From Anniella stebbinsi (lineage: Eukaryota; Chordata; Lepidosauria; Squamata; Anniellidae), in NCBI GenBank assembly GCA_029215795.1, contig JARDYH010000001.1:190285654-190349653 (forward strand): a stretch of 64,000 nt of DNA, given 5' to 3'. Positions within the stretch are counted from its first letter, which is position 1. Each line of letters opens with the position of its first letter. This document shows positions 42,873 through 52,968 of the stretch, one piece after another. Position numbers and translations under genes: made by a program. Below the pieces are notes generated by a model. It did no database searches and had not been told where the DNA came from. It worked only from the letters and a program-made list of their open reading frames with translations.

Positions 42873-43735
42873 CGAATATTGGTCTTACATGTATACATAT
42901 ACCTCTCATATAACCATCCAGGTTTCCCGATCTCATGGCCAGTCTAATGTTACTGTAGGCAAACATTACTGTAAAAGTGAAAATGTTGTAAGAGGAGCAC
43001 TTACCAAGTTGGACATGTCACAAAATCTACTTTATTTAATGTTGCTTGTTTGTTTTTCTGTGAAATCTGTGGCTGAAGTTCTCTAAGGTTTGGAAGCTTA
43101 GAAAACTAATCTGGAAAGCCACTGGTTGGGCTACAAAAAGGTCCTTTTTTACTTGCCTGTGATCCTCAAGGAATTTTTTTTTAAATCCACTGTAATGCTG
43201 AAAGATTCTCTGAGCAGTAATTTCCTTTCTGAAAATGGGTTCTCCTGTGCTGTGCACAGTAACTTTGCTCTTTCTCTGGTCATGAGCTGATACCCATATT
43301 ATAACAGGGATGCTTCCACACTAGTCCTTAGCTCTGGAATTGCCATCTTCTGTTCATTAAATTTCTGGAGAGCATCTGGTAGACTTCCATTGTTTCCTGT
43401 GTTCCCCTCTAGTGCTTATTCAGACCTGATTTGCTCAACAATAATGGAATCAAATCTGAGAGAGGGGATATGGAGAGGAAAAATACATGAGTCTTCTGAT
43501 ATGATTTGGGGGAGTCACTGATTGCAATGCTCTCCCCCACCCCAAATGTTGGATCTATCCTTATGGCAGTGAGCAGCAAAGTAATCACAAACCCCAGTGT
43601 GGGGTACTTGCCCCTGGGAGTGATCCACGTTCCTTCCTTCCTGGTACCATGTGTGCTGTAAGGACTGTTTCAACTCTGATGATGACATATAATATATATT
43701 CTATTTCCAGTTGAGAGGGGGAAAACAATGGCTTA
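42873..43735. other. Non-coding sequence left of the Harbinger element
   Basis: No gene or repeat recognised. The element begins at 43736 directly after a TTA. Confidence 0.5.
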
Positions 43736-44029
43736 GGCCTCCTCCACACGAGACGTTTAATGAGCCTTAGAGGCTCATTATAAATTTTACCTCCACACCA
43801 GCGGAGCGCAAAACGGGCGTAGAGGCGCGTTATCTCCCGGATTATGCGCATTATCGAATGCGCGTTAAATAGCGACTTTTATTTTGCGGCGGGATGTAAA
43901 GCGCGTTATGCCCATGTGTACAGTTTTTCAGTGAAGTGCATTTTCGGAGAGGTGTGAGCAGGTAGAGGGCAGGTTTTGACGAGATGGGCGGGGAGAGGGA
44001 AGGGATTTCTGGCGGGAAATTTGAAAAAA

Positions 44030-44218
44030 GGCCCTCGGGTTATGCGCAGCCGCGCGGGTGTGTTCACGCAACGGATTGGCTGGAGGCACAGGTGTGGTCG
44101 CGCGCCTATGCATATAAGCGCGTGCGCGCGATCCGACCGTTGACCTCATTTAACTTCGCGACGCCAGAGAGACTGCATCCTGAGTTATTTCCTCTCTACA
44201 CCTTTTCCACCTAACGAA
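44030..44218 (+). promoter_or_regulatory. Promoter region of the plus-strand Myb-like gene
   Basis: A TATA-like catataag (44111-44118) lies in CpG-rich sequence about 100 bp before the ATG. The stretch gaccgttgacctcattta (from 44134) and gttatgcgca (from 44039) recurs in inverted orientation at the other end of the transposon in front of the transposase, so both outer genes use related promoters. Confidence 0.55.
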
Positions 44219-47200
44219 ATGGCTGCTCCAGGAAGGGGAGTTTCTTGGAAAAAGGCAGAGATCCTCGACCTTCTGGACATTTTTGGGGAGCAGAAAGTTC
44301 AAGCTCAACTGAATGCCAGCCATAGGAACTTAGATGCCTATGAATCCATTGCTCAGGAAATGCAAAGAAGGGGCCATATCCGTACAGCGAAGGAGTGCAG
44401 GACCAAGGCAAAGGCAATGAGGCAGGAATATCGCAGGGTCGTGAATCATAATTCACGATCAGGGAATGATGCTGCCACCTGCCCCTTTTTTGAGGAGCTT
44501 CATAGCATTTTTCGGGGGGATGCTACTATTCAACCAAATCGCGTGGGCAGGAGTCTGAACATCCATCGTGTCCAAGCACCTGCTGCTGCTCCCCCAGTAA
44601 GTTCCCCCCTGGCTTTCCCGCTCTCAGAAGGCTCAGAAGAACTGTTCAGCAGTGAACTTCAAACAATAGATGTGGAGGACTACCTTGGAACGCCCTACTC
44701 TCCCGGAGGTACATTGATTGTAATTGCCATTTTTAAAAAAATCTCGTTCTTCCTTCTATTTCATGCCTATAGCTCACATCTGATGTTTTCCCCTTTTAGA
44801 ATTCGAGACACCAGAAGATATTGGAAACGAAGAACCTGAAGGTATATACTGTTTCTTTTGTTGGGTTGGGAAGACTCTTAACTTTACAACTTAATATTGT
44901 GTTCCATGGAATAAAAAATTGTATTCTAAAATGGGGCAGGCAGATGCGGGTGAGCGGGTGGGGCAGGAGAGGGCAGGAGAGATCTCCTCTAGCTACCCAG
45001 CATTTCTCTGGTCTCTCCAGGGCGGGGGGGGGAAAAGGATAAGGAGCAGGCAGCCATTTTGAACAACCACCCCCATTTAAACAGGAGGGAGGTTTGTGAT
45101 TGTGCCTATTGATGAAACCTCCTAAAAGCTCTTCTTTTTCTGCCACGGCAGGAGCCTACAGTACCACCAGTGCATCGGAATCCATTGAGCAAGCAGATTT
45201 GAGGGCCAGAAATCTCCAGCAGCATCCTGCAGCAGCAGCACCGAGTAAGTACAGGCCTAGCTAATTTCTGGGGTCAGACATCATGGAAGGAAGGGAGTTC
45301 CATTTAGGCTGGGTTTATGGGGGGGGAGGGGGAAAGGGGGCCATTGGACACAACATTGTGGTGCATGGGACCAGAAATTGTGGTCTATGGGAGGGATTCC
45401 CGCCTTTTTCTCCACAGCAGTTAAAGTTACATGAGCCCTGACCTCCTTTTCATGTGGTCAGCCTAGGCAGGCAGCCATTTTGAACACACAAACAACCCCC
45501 CCTATTTAAAATGGAGGTTTGTGATTGTGCCTATTGGAATGAAACCTCCTAATAGCTCTTCTTTTTCTTCCACGGCAGGAGCCTCCAGAAGCAGCGGTTC
45601 CACCAGTGCGTCAGAAACCAGTGAGCAAGCACATTTGAGGGCCAGAAATCTCCAGCATCCTGCACCAGCACCACCGTGTAAGTACTGGGCTAATTTCTGG
45701 GGTTCATGGGACAAGAAATTGTGGTCTATGGGAGGGATTTCAGCCTTTTTCTCTACAGCAGTTAAAGTTACATGAGCCCTGACCTCCTTTTCATGTGGTC
45801 AGCCCTGCCCTCTTTTGTATATGGTAACTGTAGTATAATACAGCCTGCAACTTTAACTGTGGTGATGAAGAGGGAATTTCACCAGGTGCTGCATGCATAC
45901 AAACGGCACCGGCTGAAATTCCCTTTTCTCTACAGCAGTTAAAGTTACATGAGCCCTGACCTCCTTTTCATGTGGTCAGCCTAGGCAGGCAGCCATTTTG
46001 AACACACAAACAACCCCCCCTATTTAAAATGGAGGTTTGTGATTGTGCCTTTGGAATGAAACCTCCTAATAGCTCTTCTTTTTCTTCCACGGCAGCCTAC
46101 AGAAGCAGCGGTTCCACCAGTGCGTCAGAAACCATTGAGCAAGCAGATTTGAGGGCCAGAAATCTCCAGCATCCTGCACCAGCACCACCGTGTAAGTATA
46201 GGGCTAATTTCTGGGGTGCATGGGACCAGAAATTGTGGTCTATGGAAGGGATTTCAGCCTTTTTCTCTACAGCACTTAAAAGTTACATGAGCCCTGACCT
46301 CCTTTTCATGTGGTCAGCCTAGGCAGGCAGCCATTTTGAACACACAAACAACCCCCCCCTATTTAAAATGGAGGTTTGTGATTGTGCCTTTGGAATGAAA
46401 CCTCCTAATAGCTCTTGTTATTTGCTTGATAAAGTTTCAGTCAGTCCTGCAATTCTTATAAATGTGTGAAAGGACATTCTCATCTTCAGGATGAGGGTGC
46501 GAGAGAACCCATGGGACAGGCTGGACATGGAATAAATGATTTTTAAACACACTAAACTTTGCCCTTTCCCTTCAGGTACAGATGAAGGAAGGAGACATCC
46601 CATCCCAAAGGCAGCACTCTCGCCCCCACGCAGCAGGGACACAGAACGCATTCTGGAGCATGCCTCTGCACACAACGCAAACCTCTTGCAGATGCATGAG
46701 CAGATGCATGCGCAGATGTTGCAGAGAAATGACCAGATGTTGGAATACTTGAAAACAGAAGATGCAAGGGACCAAAGAAATCAAGATGCCCTTCTCAGAA
46801 TTCTAGAAAGACAATGTGTCACGATGGAGAAGATGGTGACGGTGGTGCAACAGGAAGAACCGGGAACATCAACACATACAGCCAACCCATCATCTGCTAG
46901 CCATGGAAAACGCCAGCCAATAAAAAGACGGTTGGCTATTGACAGTATGGAGGGGACCAGCTCTAAGCCAAATGACTTAGGTGGGGACTCAGGAGAGGGT
47001 GAGGGGAGAAAATGCCTGGCTAAGAAGAAACGTAAAGTGAAGGTGCAACAACCCCAGTTAGTGGGCACTTGTCCTAGGTCTGCCCAGTTGCAAAATCCCC
47101 AGAATGACATTTTAACCAAAGACTTGGACGAATCACTGCTCCCGTGCTCCCATACAGTACTCCCACAGCGCTCATCATCACCACTTCAAGGTGAGCCAAG

Positions 47201-47252
47201 CATAAAGCGCACGGCACGGGAGGTAAAAAAACCCTTAAAGTTCTCCCCTTAG
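44219..47252 (+). CDS. Harbinger Myb/SANT-like partner protein, six exons with a triplicated exon
   Basis: Predicted exons 44219-44708, 44800-44841, 45152-45244, 45579-45677, 46096-46191 and 46576-47252 all have AG/GT borders and join to 1,497 nt, a 498-residue protein. The start is the ATG in acgaaATGg. Residues about 8-100 form a Myb/SANT-like domain (VSWKKAEILDLL, RGHIRTAKECRTKAK, CPFFEEL), close in style to the domain of ZSCAN20/29-type and Harbinger partner proteins. About 295-365 is a coiled coil (HEQMHAQMLQRNDQMLEYLK), and 423-430 (KKKRKVKV) is a basic nuclear localisation signal. In studied Harbinger elements such a protein binds the transposase, brings it into the nucleus and helps it bind the ends; the same role here is inference. 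Exons 3a, 3b and 3c are near copies (SASESIEQADLRARNLQ in one) and all are phase 1-1, so any number can be included without a frameshift. Splicing is predicted, not observed. Confidence 0.88.
45040..46430 (+). repeat. Tandem duplication of an exon with its flanking intron
   Basis: The unit holds a cctatttaaa-type intron stretch, the exon of 93-99 nt, a gggctaatttctgggg stretch and half of a MITE (cagttaaagttacatgag). Exon starts are 427 and 517 bp apart (45152, 45579, 46096), and a fourth intron part without exon follows at 46321-46415 before the sequence diverges at tagctcttg. The second spacer is longer because it also holds a complete MITE at about 45833-45981. Confidence 0.9.
45833..45981 (+). 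mobile_element. Short palindromic MITE, copy 3
   Basis: ctgcaactttaactgtggtg at the left and cagcagttaaagttacatga at the right are inverted relatives, with tttcaccaggtgctgcatgc between. It lies in the intron between exon copies 3b and 3c; partial right halves recur with each exon duplicate (45408-45466, 45750-45805, 46258-46318). Confidence 0.7.
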
Positions 47253-47270
47253 AATACATGTTTTATGTTA

Positions 47271-47535
47271 TTGTTAATAATTTGCTGTTAATTATGGGTT
47301 TTTTTGCTGTTATTTATGTAATTGTTATGTTATTTGCTGTTAATTATGGTATTTTTTGCTGTTATTTATGTAATTGTTATGTTATTTGCTGTTAATTATG
47401 GTATTTTTTGCTGTTATTTATGTAATTGTTATGTTATTTGCTGTTAATTATGGTATTTTTTGCTGTTATTTATGTAATTGTTATGTAATTTGCTGTTAAT
47501 TATGGTATTTTTTGCTGTTATTTATGTTGTATTTA
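47271..47535 (+). repeat. 52 bp AT-rich tandem repeat, about five copies
   Basis: The word gctgttaattatggt recurs at 47284, 47336, 47388, 47440 and 47492, exactly 52 bp apart. The repeat starts just after the stop of the plus-strand gene. An attaaa poly(A) signal variant lies directly after it (47539-47544), so the repeat probably belongs to the 3' UTR and separates the two convergent Myb-like genes. Confidence 0.93.
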
Positions 47536-47742
47536 ACCATTAAAATATAGTTTTCATATCTCACTGTGTGGTTGGGACTGTGCTTCCTATCTATTATTAA
47601 AACAGTTAGGCATCCCTCCTTAATACTGCACCAACCTGAAAATGCTAAGGAAAACCAAAACAATGTTTTAGTAACAAAAATAAAGATTTAGTTTTTTAAA
47701 CAAATATTATTTTCAACTATTTACAATATTTTTTTCAACTAT

Positions 47743-49543
47743 TTACAATTTATTGAGGATCTTGTCCAACTTTTCCTCCATGGAGGACATGCGATTCTGC
47801 ATGCCTCCAACGGCTGCCTCAAGCCTCTCCAGCCACTCCTGAGTGGGAACTGCATGGGATGGTAAGAAATTTTTTTTGTTTAAAATCATATAATATAACC
47901 AACAGAAAAACAGTTCAAGATGTACTACTCAATGACATTGGCTATTCAATGCGATTCAATTTACAGGAATGTGAATATAGTTTTTCTTTTTTTAATTAAA
48001 AATTTAAACCATTAGTCCTGTACTGTACAATAGGGTGACCACATAAAATCCAGGTCGGTTAAACTGTTGTGATGAAGAGGGGATTTCACCAGGAACTAAT
48101 TGCATACAAATGACACTGGCTGAAATTCCCTTTTCTCTACAACTGTTACAGATACAGGAGCCCTGACCTGGATTTTATATGCTCAATGTACTCTACATTA
48201 TACAAAGCAATGGAACTTCTATTACCTGCTGGAGACACAGCAGCAGGTGAGACAGGTGGGGGTGCATCCTCCTCTTCCTCCTCTTCCTGCACCTCCTCCT
48301 CCACCTCCTCCGCAGACGGTGACGGCAATGGCGATGGACTGAGTATCCCTTCAAAATTGGAAAAAAAATGTTATTTTAAGTTTCTATCATGGTGTTCCCC
48401 GCCTCGATCCATTGGGAGAGTCTGTTAATTAATAAATAAATAAATACATATATCATTACAATTATTAATATTAATAATATTATTAAAGTACGCTGGGCAA
48501 AAATAGTATTCCTAATTAATCTGGCTTGCATTTAACTTACGTGCCCTTCTGCGGAGGGTCATCCGAGGAGGAGAAGGAGGAGGAGGAGAAGGAGGAGGAG
48601 AAGTCCCCCCAACCTCCTCCACTTCCGGAGAAGGCGCTGCCTCCTCCGCCGTCCTGTTTTGTGCTAAGAAAAAGAGGGAAAAAGGGAAATAACATTAAAA
48701 TGTGGAAGGGGTCCCTGAAGGGCATCTAGTCCCACCCCACCCAAGATGAATGCTGGAATCCACCTTAAAGCCTCATTGTGTGAGGGGTCATTGTTTTTGG
48801 GGCATTCCCCCCCCCCCCCAACCTGCACATCCACCAGAGAATACACAATGAGCAGTGGGCAGAATCACCAGCACACAGGGCTCCTGAAGGGCATCTAGTC
48901 CCACCCCACCCAAGATGAATGCTGGAATCCACCTTAAAGCCTCATTGTGTGAGGGGTCATTGTTTTTGGGGCATTCCCCCCCCCAACCTGCACATCCACC
49001 AGAGAATACACAATGAGCAGTGGGCAGAATCACCAGCACACAGGGCTCCTGAAGGGCATCTAGTCCCACCCCACCCAAGATGAATGCTGGAATCCACCTT
49101 AAAGCCTCATTGTGTGAGGGGTCATTGTTTTTGGGGTCCCCCCCCAACCTGCACATCCACCAGAGAATATACAATGAGCAGTGGGCAGAATGCTAATGCA
49201 CTCACTCACCTGCGGTCAGCCTCTCCTCAGGGCTTGGTCTCCCTGCCTTCCGCCACAGCTCCCTGAATTCATTGAAGTAGGGGGGCCGCTGGCGAAAGGG
49301 GGGATGCTCTCCGTGGGCACTAATGGCCCGAAAAAACCCACCCTTGATATACTTAAACTTCGTCCTGCACTGCAGGGCAGTGCGGACGAAGTTTTGCTGG
49401 CGCAGAGCAGCAGCCGCCCTCCTAAACAGCCTCATAGTTGGGAGGCTGCTGCTCCGCACAATCCTTCCCACGAGGGAGGATTGGAGGAGGAAGGCCAACA
49501 ATATGCGGACCTCCGCATCGCTCTAATACCTCCCTCTCGGCAT
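47743..49543 (-). CDS. Second Myb/SANT-like protein of the Harbinger element, interrupted by one TAG
   Basis: Predicted exons on the minus strand: 49543-49210, 48663-48541, 48348-48226 and 47849-47743. All have consensus borders, all junctions are phase 1, and together they make 687 nt (228 codons plus stop). The only break is an in-frame TAG at 49523-49525, codon 7, where the family usually has tryptophan of the Myb-like domain (here MPRGRY, stop, SDAEVRILL). The domain continues to about residue 95 (RTALQCRTKFKYIKGG, PPYFNEFRELW). Exons 2 and 3 encode a proline-rich and then strongly acidic linker (VEEEVQEEEEEED). Exon 4 is a short leucine-spaced coiled coil (WLERLEAAVGGMQNRMSSM) ending 35 residues after the splice. 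It shows no close likeness to the plus-strand Myb-like protein beyond fold. Likely a DNA-binding accessory of the same transposon, now probably disabled unless translation starts downstream or the TAG is read through. Confidence 0.8.
48031..48187. mobile_element. Short palindromic MITE, copy 4, in an intron
   Basis: agggtgaccacataaaatcc and tggattttatatgctc are inverted ends around the usual gatgaagaggggatttcacc core. It lies inside the last intron of the minus-strand Myb-like gene, so it inserted into the Harbinger element or was carried by it. Confidence 0.75.
48711..49192 (+). repeat. ~167 bp tandem repeat, three copies, in an intron
   Basis: ggcatctagtcccaccccac recurs at 48721, 48890 and 49055, with a variable C run in each copy (12, 8 and 7 or so). 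All three copies are inside the first intron of the minus-strand Myb-like gene. Open frames on the minus strand repeat in step with it and are not coding. Confidence 0.92.
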
Positions 49544-49700
49544 CTTGAAGGATTGTGAGGAAGTGTAGGCCTCACTTCCGGTTTGCGATGTTTCCGCGGA
49601 CCGGTTTAGCGGTTGCGCGCATGCGCGCGGAACCGTCAAACCACCATTCCTGAACAGCGCGTAAGTGATTAAACACTGTCGCGTTTGTTCGGAGCAGTGG
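49544..49700 (-). promoter_or_regulatory. CpG-rich promoter region of the second Myb-like gene
   Basis: A CpG-rich island in AT-rich surroundings. On the minus strand ccggaagtgagg, an ETS-type site common near start points of TATA-less promoters, lies about 30-40 bp before the ATG at 49543. No TATA box was seen. Confidence 0.4.
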
Positions 49701-50808
49701 GAAAGTTACCAGATGTGTTTTGGGTGTCCTGAATGTACCTTTGGCTGTCCTGAACTGAAAACATGAGAATATTATTGACTAGATTGTAGTATGTTATTCT
49801 CTCGAAAACAACCCTGTGAGGTAGGCACGGGCTGTGGTCCTGTTACTTGCCCTTCTGCAATGTTCACTGTACTGCATATGTGTGTTGGGTTACCTGAAGT
49901 CTTATTGTCTAGGAATACTACTATCAACATTGTTTGAAAGTTGTAGGAACATATTTTATTTAGGATAAGCATTTTTAAAATAAGCATTTTTAATATGGCA
50001 ACAACAATTTCAGCATAGAAAATAAAATTTACAGCAAACAGCATTTACAACAGCATTTAAGTTGACATTGAAAGACACATAGTTGAAAGTCACATTATTA
50101 TGAACATCTCATCTCAAAACAATATCTAATTAGTAACAGCAATGTAAAAGAAAAATCAACAAAGAACATAAAATGAACAGCATTTGAAACAGCATTGCAT
50201 TACACATTGAAAGAAACATACGTTACTTTAAACTCACATAATGAATATCTCAAAACAGCAATGAAAAAGCAAAATCAACATAGAAAATAAAATTCACATA
50301 TTCTAAAGGGATGGTCTATCAGTAGTCTCATTTCCTAATGCTGCTTCTTCTTGAGGAAAAAAGGAAAAAACACAGTCAGTGCTGCCTGAAGCGGGACTTT
50401 TGGCTTTGGCTTGAAGAATGAATGATCCAGAAAAAGGAAGCGGTTGCCTTCTGGTCTGGTCACATCACAGCGGTTCCACACGACACCATCTTTGATCCCC
50501 TGCAGTTCTCTCTATGCTATGTTCTAAGGGAAATTTAGAGATGGATTGTTTTAGCATAGGATGTAATAACAATATCCCACCCTCTACACATTCATTCATT
50601 CATTCATTCATTCTCAGGCCATGAAGCCTTTATGCGGAAACTTTCCTTATTTGTTTATGCACTTTCCTTATTTGTTTATGCTTCTAGCAGGTATTGACAC
50701 ATGGTTCCTTCCTGTGACTTGCTGAAATAGAGTAAATAGAGTAAAAGTTAGGGAAAACATGGCTTACACAAGTTTGGCACAGGGTTTTGGCACTGAACAC
50801 TCACCTCC
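49701..50808. other. AT-rich 3' region of the transposase gene
   Basis: It is mostly A-rich with loose internal repetition (gcatttgaaacagcattg, aaaatcaacaaagaac). It contains an (ATTC)n run at 50588-50612 and a doubled ctttccttatttgtttatgc at 50641-50681. A minus-strand open stretch at 50335-50513 (GVVWNRCDVTRPEGNRFLF in part) ends at a stop and might be a 3' exon; that is weak. A donor-like ggaggtgagtg sits just after the transposase stop. Confidence 0.4.
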
Positions 50809-52263
50809 CTAAGGGTTCTGCCCACGCAGAGACCAAAGCATGCCTCTTAAGGCATCTCTGACCTTTTCCCCAGCAGCCTTTTCTTGAATTTCCTCATGTG
50901 CCATTGGCAGCGGGGCACCCAGGGTTGCCAGTTCAATTTGCCTTGCTTCTGGGAGATCCAATTCAACATCATGTCCTTGACTTTCACAAATGTTGTGCAG
51001 AATGACACAGGCAGATATCACTGAAATGATGTTTTCTTCAGCGAGTTCTATCCTGGATGACAGGCATCTCCACCGTGCTTTTAACCTTCCAAAGGCACAT
51101 TCAACAACATTCCGCGCCCGTGACAGACAGTGGTTGAAATGTTGCTTTTGCTGGTCCAGGGCTCCACCGTAAGGTTTCATCAGCCACTTCCGAATGGGGT
51201 AAGCGGAATCAGCCACCACCAGTGGAGGAATCTGCACGTCATTAACAGTAATGGTAGGGTTCCCTGGGATGAAGACACCAGCTTCCATGGCCTCAAAGAG
51301 TGCAGAGTTCCTGAAGACATGGGCATCGTGATTTCTCCCACTCCAACCTATTTCCACATCCATGAATCGCCCACGGTGGTTCACTGTGCCTTGAAGGAGC
51401 ATGGAAAAAAAGCGTTTCCGGTTTATGTAGTCAGGGCCTTGCCTAGGAGGACAGGCAATTTCAATGTGACATCCATCTGTGGCTGCAACACAATGAAAGA
51501 AGCCCAGTTTGGAAAATCCACTCATGATCTGAGAGAGAAAACATAAATAATGGAAAATAAATCATTATTGCTTCACCGGCTGGCATGCTTGAGATACAAT
51601 GATCAAGTTCCATTAGGCCACCTATATAACAGCCTAGTCCATCTTTTCCTATCCCAAATAATAAAAAACAAGACTCACCTCTGGAACATTGCCAAGGCAA
51701 ACTGTTTGTCTCAGAAGCGCATGCTCCATGGCTAGGCAGACCTCCACAACGATCATGGCTGCCGTTGTTCTACCGATCCCAAATTGCTGAGCCACCACCC
51801 GGTAACCACCAGGATTTGCTAGCCTCCATATACAGATGGCCACGCACTTCACCATTGGAATGGCTTCCCTCATGTTCGTATTGCGACGTTCAAGAAATGG
51901 CCGAAGATGGTCTGCAATCTTGAAAAGGGTCGCTCTGGTCATCCTAAAGTGCTCTAGCCACTGCTCATCACCCCAGAGGGCTAGAACATCGTTTTCCCAC
52001 CAGTCACGACTCCTGGGGAAGCACCACCATCTTCTTGGTCTCTGTTGTTTCATCAAAGGAACATATAATAAATTCTCTTGGAGCCTATCTTGTTGGAGCC
52101 TTAAAAGATATGAGTTGTTCTCTTGGAGCATTCTCATGATGATTCGTCTTCTTCTTCTTCTCCGTTGAATCGTTCTCCTTAGGCAAGTCAATGTAAAATG
52201 CATATTTGCGATCATAAGTTGAATTGCATACACGAGGGAACGAGAAATCGAGGTAGGAGCCAT
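50809..52263 (-). CDS. PIF-Harbinger DDE transposase (HARBI1-like), two exons
   Basis: Exons 52263-51679 and 51528-50809 on the minus strand join in phase 0 (gag|gtgagt donor, ctctcag| acceptor) to a 434-residue protein. The open frame extends upstream to 52290 only through a TTG, so the ATG at 52263 is chosen. Residues about 130-175 include a helix-turn-helix-like region (YRVVAQQFGIGRTTAAMIV). The DDE_Tnp_4 catalytic residues are present: D213 (AATDGCHIE), D302 (VVADSAYP) and E338 (VVECAFGRLKARWR), with 35 residues between the last two. The end ACVILHNICES is the family hallmark. It would cut and paste the element at TTA sites, with help from the Myb-like partner. The gene is complete with no stop or frameshift. 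It is transcribed inward from the right end, opposite the plus-strand Myb-like gene. Confidence 0.95.
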
Positions 52264-52440
52264 ATCGCCTTCTCTTCCCGTCCAGCTCAAAATGGCGTTT
52301 CAGAAAGAGAAAAGGGGAACCAAACTTGCTTCTCTGGTGTCGCCTAGGTAAATGAACTCAACGGTCGACGAAACTCAGATCACGTGCTTGTATGCATATG
52401 CTCACGCGCGAAGGTGCGCGTAACCTGAAGGCATTTTTTC
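52264..52440 (-). promoter_or_regulatory. Promoter region of the transposase
   Basis: The minus strand here (gcatatgcatacaagcacg, then cgaccgttgagttcattta) closely follows the plus-strand sequence at 44105-44152 in front of the Myb-like gene. A common promoter design at both ends would co-express transposase and partner. Confidence 0.5.
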
Positions 52441-52759
52441 CCCCCGCTCAGCTCTGCCCTCTCCCCCCCTCCCATCTCGTTGCCGGGCAACCCGAAATTA
52501 CGTAGGCAGGCAGGTACATTCCTGTGGGTGGAGTACAGGAAGGGAGGGCTGGGAAAGGGGTTGGCTCTGATCACGTGCTTGTATGCATATGCACGCGTGC
52601 GAAGGTGCGCGTAACCTGAAGGCATTTTTCCCCCCCCCGGTCAGCTCTGCCCTCTCCCCCCCTCCCATCTCGTTGCCAGGCAACCCGAAATTACGTAGGC
52701 AGGCAGGTACATTCCTGTGGGTGGAGTACAGGAAGGGAGGGCTGGGAAAGGGGTTGGCT
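52378..52759. repeat. 191 bp tandem duplication in the right subterminal region
   Basis: gatcacgtgcttgtatgcat starts at 52378 and again at 52569, and the following sequence (cccatctcgttgcc, gaaattacgtaggcaggc, gggtggagtacagg) repeats with few differences. The left end of the transposon has only one counterpart. It doubles the promoter-proximal sequence of the transposase gene. Confidence 0.92.
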
Positions 52760-52968
52760 TTAGGTAAAAAGCGAATTAAAATGTCTGTTTCCTCCTCCCG
52801 AAGCCCCGCATGTGAACAATTAAAACGCGCGTCGGAGAAAAGCGATAATGCGCTTCAACGCCTCTCGCTGCCTCCCGTGCAGAGGGATGAGGCGTAAATG
52901 CGCCTCCGCGATAGTGCGCATAATCCCACAAACGGGCGCAAAAGCGCATCCTTGTGGAGGGGGCCTTA

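Follow-up and report, generated by a model that had tools for sequence, protein, structure and literature searches.

Can a Harbinger-like DNA transposon carry a second Myb-type gene, and what would such a gene do? The question is raised by a 9230-bp element in a 64-kb stretch of contig JARDYH010000001.1 of Anniella stebbinsi, referred to as a whole as the window. Judged by its sequence, the element is one copy of a three-gene Harbinger-like (PHIS) DNA transposon that has recently expanded, with gene 1 (+), a middle gene (-) and the transposase gene (-) in that order, the middle gene lying between the other two. The transposase, the conserved trihelix Myb partner encoded by gene 1, and a distantly similar trihelix Myb protein with a coiled coil, encoded by the middle gene, are inherited together, in the same order, in two families. 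We regard the three-gene architecture and its integrity as very likely.

Published gene sets are smaller. An excerpt of a survey of 380 PHIS families gives, in most groups, two open reading frames (ORFs) for the majority of autonomous candidates, and a single one in Spy, with at most one Myb-type partner per group; for NuwaII it reports the target preference C|TNA|G and an average length of 4.7 kb (PMC4482050). Parts of other papers describe fish Harbingers with two ORFs and congruent phylogenies (PMC9179366), Harbinger-Snek of sea kraits, which encodes two proteins (PMC8437027), and Harbinger3_DR, whose Myb protein has a 9-bp subterminal motif as its binding site and is required for the nuclear entry of both proteins; the last source also states that every known PIF element has two genes (PMC9710019). 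No description of a three-gene Harbinger was found in the open-licence literature, Repbase and Dfam lying outside the search.

A transposon with three genes

The element is bounded by tips that agree at 12 of 14 bases (left GGCCTCCTCCACAC, reverse complement of the right GGCCCCCTCCACAA), and TTA flanks it on both sides. Terminal inverted repeats with a short target site duplication (TSD), together with a DDE_Tnp_4-type transposase of the DD35E kind, place it among PHIS elements. The window transposase has 434 residues in an open frame (DDE_Tnp_4 E 1.9e-35) and a catalytic triad of D213, D302 and E338, numbered on the joined exons, with 35 residues separating the last two. The six exons of gene 1 join in frame into a protein of 498 residues carrying a Myb_DNA-bind_4 domain (E 9.1e-19), and thus provide the separate Myb/SANT-like partner gene of PIF/Harbinger elements; three genes are present instead of the two ORFs that most autonomous elements of that group have. 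The middle gene consists of four exons (m1 to m4, 49543-47743, minus strand) with 228 codons and a stop, and encodes a second Myb_DNA-bind_4 domain (E 2.2e-07). All exon structures follow GT-AG splice sites and open frames. Identity between the two Myb types is 19-23%, and each type is nearer to its counterpart in the other family.

The original prediction, which was made from the letters of the window, had claimed inverted tips, a complete DD35E transposase and a CpG-rich start of the middle gene, and these claims are borne out. The CpG observed/expected ratio just upstream of the middle gene is 1.19; three stretches inside the element give 0.23-0.39, and 13 kb of flanking host DNA give 0.35. 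Two spliced Myb/SANT-like genes, each with a C-terminal coiled coil, had also been claimed. Both Myb domains were recovered, and the coiled coil of the middle protein passes a simple heptad shuffle test (0.0002, on a peptide from another copy), but that of gene 1 is not supported, the same test giving 0.22 and its sub-helices 0.37-0.47. Only the transposase and gene 1 are complete; the middle gene is broken in the window by a TAG at codon 7, a position that encodes tryptophan in 16/16 other copies translated. In structure prediction, the middle Myb domain reached a mean predicted local distance difference test score (pLDDT) of 85.1 and gene 1 a poor 58.6. The features of the element, in window coordinates, are as follows.

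43733..43735, no strand: left TSD copy, TTA
43736..52965, +: whole element, 9230 bp, from tips, TSD and alignment to copies
43736..43749, +: left terminal inverted repeat GGCCTCCTCCACAC
43825..43908, +: four GCGCRTTA motifs, at 43825, 43846, 43860 and 43901, candidate binding sites
44219..44708, +: gene 1 exon 1, trihelix Myb/SANT-like domain (Myb_DNA-bind_4)
44800..44841, +: gene 1 exon 2
45152..45244, +: gene 1 exon 3 (repeat unit)
45579..45677, +: gene 1 exon 4 (repeat unit)
46096..46191, +: gene 1 exon 5 (repeat unit)
46576..47252, +: gene 1 exon 6, C-terminal part with KKKRKV, stop included
47743..47849, -: middle gene exon m4, C-terminal coiled coil, stop included
48226..48348, -: middle gene exon m3
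48541..48663, -: middle gene exon m2
49210..49543, -: middle gene exon m1, second trihelix Myb/SANT-like domain
49523..49525, -: middle gene codon 7, TAG in the window
49544..49750, -: CpG-rich region upstream of the middle gene, observed/expected 1.19
50809..51528, -: transposase exon 2, DDE_Tnp_4 domain, stop included
51679..52263, -: transposase exon 1
52846..52853, -: GCGCATTA motif of the right end
52952..52965, -: right terminal inverted repeat GGCCCCCTCCACAA (reverse complement)
52966..52968, no strand: right TSD copy, TTA

The KKKRKV of gene 1 exon 6 is a basic stretch resembling a nuclear localization signal. Within gene 1, an in-frame exon of 93-99 bp is tandemly repeated together with its intron (45152-46191); among 16 other stretches, some of them cut short, 13 have this repeat core 3-6 times, and it was not found in the remaining three (L013, L015 and L022). 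About 190 bp of the right end are also duplicated in tandem (52374-52759).

The middle gene across the window family

The genome (1.89 Gb, 91 contigs) was searched with the transposase domain, the middle exon and the gene 1 exon, the best 150 of 1746, 752 and 1782 candidates, respectively, being scored; all counts are lower bounds. Among the matches listed, 127 of 150 DDE matches share one score and 148 of 150 gene 1 exon 1 matches have 100% protein identity, which points to a recent burst. Two thirds of the listed middle matches (100/150) lie on the same strand as a listed DDE match and 1.4-3.4 kb from it, and 85 of the 150 listed gene 1 matches are accompanied by a listed middle and DDE match in the expected order. 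The other gene 1 matches have a DDE without a listed middle match (31), a middle without a listed DDE match (24), or neither (10). These groups do not show absence, because each list holds the best 150 only: L033, one of the 31, carries a more distant allele of the middle exon, and its frame is open.

Twenty-four stretches, each about 10 kb long, were examined, 17 from the window family (family A) and 7 from other families, and four further stretches (L033, L034, L036 and L037) were added later. Exon m1 is present in 16 of the 17, and gene 1 exon 1 lies, whole or partial, within 11 of them. The exception is L026, in which the transposase alone was detected, with neither gene 1 nor the middle gene, and which adjoins a 355-bp derivative of the kind described below. 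Among the later stretches, L033 and L037 have m1, L034 runs into another insertion before the position of m1, and L036, in which the spacing is shortest, shows a deletion with an endpoint inside m1. In total, 18 of the 21 other copies of the family have a whole m1, and a clean empty site at the position of the middle gene was found in none of the 21. The original prediction had reasoned that copies cleanly lacking the middle gene would reveal a nested insertion; no such copy is among them, and a nested insertion in the window copy was rejected on the evidence of L033, L036 and a second family (family B, see below).

The middle gene is open throughout in 14 of the 17 copies compared, the window included (L012, L014, L017, L018, L022-L025 and L027-L032), and not open in the window, L013 and L015. 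Splice sites are kept, and exon lengths vary by multiples of three except in L013 m1 and L015 m3. The ratio of nonsynonymous to synonymous substitution rates (dN/dS) was computed from 11 copies (10 for the complete middle gene, 7 for gene 1 exon 1): m1 gives 0.18, the complete middle gene 0.25 and gene 1 exon 1 0.13.

Two side observations concern additional middle-type sequences. At L015:5700-9834 there are extra, diverged middle-gene pieces, including an open Myb exon of 117 residues that is 73% identical, and the middle gene beside them has an altered start codon and a frameshift. On contig C5 of G000 (181.71-182.07 Mb), six middle-exon matches fall within 0.36 Mb without a listed transposase match. 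A domesticated cluster at this site (181.7-182.1 Mb) was considered and dropped, the one member read, L037, resembling an ordinary element piece.

Related families

Family B, represented by L016, carries a transposase, a middle-type gene and a gene 1-type gene in the same order and on the same strands as the window family. Its transposase is about 61% identical to that of the window family overall (57% and 63% for the exons), its gene 1 type 61% and its middle type 36%. Since the Pfam match of the L016 middle domain (E 0.025) is under the curated cut-off, its assignment leans mainly on tblastn (1.2e-15). A heptad stretch further 3', whose place within the gene we infer, passes the shuffle test (0.0002). 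These likenesses suggest that the three-gene layout predates the split of families A and B. A third family, family C (L019-L021, extended by L035), has one middle-type domain, some 7 kb off and on the other strand (E 0.0028 in Pfam, under the curated cut-off), which is 32-34% identical and has the orientation to the transposase that gene 1 has. Gene 1 was not found in the stretch read, in which the family is not seen whole; if family C really is without it, a loss of gene 1 would explain its layout.

The wider relatives of the transposase come from reptiles. Among 120 listed of 403 found, the best match is from Elgaria (55% identity), the named relatives are squamates, turtles and crocodilians, and several are annotated as HARBI1-like. 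In a tree of 38 sequences, 35 of which were hand-picked for taxa from the 120, families B and C cluster with the Elgaria protein (support 100/100), and the window-family transposase falls inside the same 16-row clade, its placement there being left unfixed by the tree. Proteins combining a Harbinger transposase domain with a KRAB domain, and in P0013 also a SCAN domain, occur in squamates and one turtle (P0003, P0009, P0013, P0027, P0033, P0044, P0050, P0055 and P0057, among others); they are possible domesticated fusions.

The suggestion that the element represents an undescribed three-gene subfamily agrees with most of these results: none of the 21 other copies is cleanly without the middle gene, a diverged second family has the same layout, and no prior description was found in the literature searched. 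The coiled coil attributed to gene 1 is not supported. The stop at codon 7, the non-TWA target sites and the exon mosaicism lay beyond what the original prediction could see, and the roles it offered for the second Myb gene (binding of different end motifs, regulation, or heterodimer formation) would be possible ones.

Ends, target sites and short derivatives

The motif GCGCRTTA, first spotted by eye in the ends of the element, occurs five times in the 64-kb window, always in these ends, versus 0.95 expected, and 0/100 shuffles reach five. Eight full copies (the window and seven others) have 2-5 occurrences each, only in the left 175 bp and once at 110-120 bp from the right tip, and three 355-bp end-only derivatives have 3-6 each. 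GCGCRTTA may be a site at which one of the Myb proteins binds.

Exact 3-bp duplications were found at 22 of 31 insertions having both ends, a count that includes a set with 14/20 duplications (L041 among them) and excludes the cross-paired row L017 190-8637. The TTA duplication claimed by the original prediction does flank the window copy on both sides, but it is not the rule of the family, in which the TWA target of PIF/Harbinger elements (TTA included) accounts for 4/22 sites and TNA for 7/22. One of the 22 sites had too little flank to be counted further. At the other 21, a C before or a G after the duplication occupies 26 of 42 positions (p 6.6e-09 versus base composition) and a TNA core is seen at 7 (p 0.0014), both patterns having been looked for after the sites had been seen. 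The target preference therefore seems to resemble a relaxed C|TNA|G rather than TWA.

The 355-bp derivative joins the left 172 bp and about 120 bp of the right end through a short middle (L026:2591-2945, L010:4110-4464, L017:190-544, and L038-L057). Among the best 40 of 934 candidates scored, eight copies are 99-100% identical, so that this derivative has probably been mobile recently.

Partner or regulator

In the mechanism that we propose, the transposase would cut at the tips, and gene 1 would be the usual partner, which, as reported for Harbinger3_DR, binds near the ends and takes the transposase into the nucleus. The second DNA-binding partner would be the middle protein, self-associating via its coiled coil and helping to read or pair the ends. 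We put the chances of such a second transposition partner at about even, and the choice of partner over regulator is one that we infer. Several results weigh against it. First, dN/dS is 0.72 for the transposase across all 11 copies, a figure raised by two frameshifted copies, so that purifying selection on this gene is not cleanly shown; for gene 1 exon 6 it is 0.74 (8 copies). Second, the middle gene is broken identically in three sister-family copies (L009-L011), whose transposase and gene 1 exon 1 are open over the aligned parts, bar one stop in gene 1 of L010. The middle gene can thus be lost while copies still spread, perhaps with help in trans. Finally, no relative of the middle protein was matched among 3809 and 7991 protein database candidates; the second search was confined to scoring those candidates with the most words in common, was probably overwhelmed by words rich in proline and glutamate, and so does not show that the protein is absent elsewhere.

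Alternatively, the middle protein could be a regulator that represses or licenses transcription of the element or titrates a host response, its diversity reflecting an arms race or copy-number control. Such a role would fit the CpG-rich region that the middle gene has to itself inside the element, in which GCGCRTTA does not occur, as well as the broken middle gene common to L009-L011. By contrast, the one Myb recognised in family C is of the middle type and stands in gene 1's orientation to the transposase, which suggests that this type can serve as a partner, although its Pfam match is below cut-off and the family was not seen complete. A purely regulatory role is a serious contender that we nevertheless consider rather unlikely.

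Probable exchange of the DNA-reading exon

The exons of the middle gene differ among copies far more than their surroundings do. In up to 16 copies (L013, L026 and region matches under 60% coverage were left out, as was intron 1, owing to its tandem repeats), the mean pairwise difference is 9.4% for m1, 6.7% for m2, 3.7% for m3 and 11.7% for m4, versus 1.4% and 2.9% for introns 2 and 3, 3.2% upstream of m1, 1.6% and 2.6% for the transposase exons, 1.5% for gene 1 exon 1 (9 copies) and 3.1% for the right end. In 116 of 120 pairs, m1 is more divergent than the transposase region; between the window and L027, for instance, m1 differs by 10.2%, the transposase region by 1.6% and the introns by 0.3-0.5%. 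A phi-type test on m1 (17 copies without L013, L036 and L037; 15 distinct alleles and 65 informative sites) gave a neighbouring-site value of 0.430 versus 0.525 expected if order were irrelevant (standard deviation 0.021; 0/2000 permutations). Adjacent sites are thus more compatible than an order-free arrangement would lead one to expect, which is the mark of recombination. In L033 and L027, one allele type extends to about codon 47 and another follows, and m1 and m4 are partly uncoupled, L032 and L028 having near-identical m1 and different m4. It is therefore very probable that the DNA-reading exon of the middle gene has been exchanged between copies in short tracts, with gene conversion as the probable route. 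Such exchange would yield copies with different versions of the reading head on a nearly identical backbone.

Plain fast evolution of the Myb exon, by mutation or positive selection, would be the other way to its high divergence. The ratio of nonsynonymous to synonymous differences (pN/pS) is 1.13 in m1 codons 47-53, few as they are, versus 0.09-0.18 in the rest of m1. In the predicted model, these codons lie where helix 34-49 ends and in the turn leading to the long helix 56-77, within which additional variable codons fall; the last helix of Myb and trihelix domains reads DNA. The divergence of m1 also tracks that of the transposase across pairs (r 0.84), which means that exchange has not erased subfamily history. 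However, synonymous sites are raised too, with an m1 dS of 0.24-0.44 versus 0.01-0.06 for the transposase in seven of the eight window pairs with an open transposase (the eighth, with L024, has 0.026 versus 0.014), and neither the permutation result nor the change of allele type near codon 48 in L027 and L033 is expected from fast evolution, which we consider improbable.

Given exchange of m1, the middle gene might be a modular specificity factor. Copies would trade the second half of the DNA-reading domain and the coiled-coil exon by gene conversion, and sublineages would switch the ends or partners that they recognise, as in a compatibility system among selfish elements. This extension is tentative and, on balance, doubtful. 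Finally, it is very improbable that the middle gene is a passenger, whether captured from the host or left by an old nested insertion: Myb_DNA-bind_4 is a broad family and the element is about twice the 4.7-kb NuwaII average given in part of PMC4482050, but two families with transposases of about 61% identity have a middle-type gene in the same position, the gene is under purifying selection, the deletion in the shortest-spacing copy, L036, ends inside m1 without a clean gap, and the 25 longest of 84 inverted pairs listed, in a search not aimed at such tips, include no matching tips flanking it.

Comparison with known systems and implications

The closest systems are compared here through partial accounts of them. 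With PIF/Harbinger elements of the Harbinger3_DR type (PMC9710019, PMC9179366) the window family shares a DDE_Tnp_4 transposase, a separate Myb/SANT-like protein, short inverted tips, 3-bp duplications and short end-only derivatives; unlike them, it has two Myb-like genes instead of one, mostly non-TWA duplications and a second Myb with a recombining exon. Compared by description, NuwaII (PMC4482050) likewise pairs a Myb/SANT partner with a transposase, and a relaxed form of its C|TNA|G may be followed in the window family, the TNA core being limited to 7/22 sites; most autonomous elements there have two ORFs, whereas the window family has three genes. Harbinger-Snek (PMC8437027), also compared by description, is a Harbinger burst in a squamate with solo-ORF derivatives, but it encodes two proteins. 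For both Myb types, the nearest solved structure by profile is the DNA-binding domain of plant trihelix GT-1 (2jmw; E 0.87 for the middle type and 0.0014 for gene 1). In Foldseek, too, it comes first for the middle model, but weakly (E 0.86, probability 0.93), nothing reaching E <=0.001, and unlike the window Myb proteins it is not from a transposon protein.

The need for a separate DNA-binding protein in Harbinger-like transposons is still poorly understood. If partners of two types occur naturally in one family, with one type broken in some sister-family copies and possibly the sole one in another family, experiments could separate their roles. A swapped DNA-binding exon amid near-identical introns and neighbouring genes would, moreover, offer a clean setting in which to follow gene conversion between copies of a transposon and the ways in which its sublineages are kept apart.

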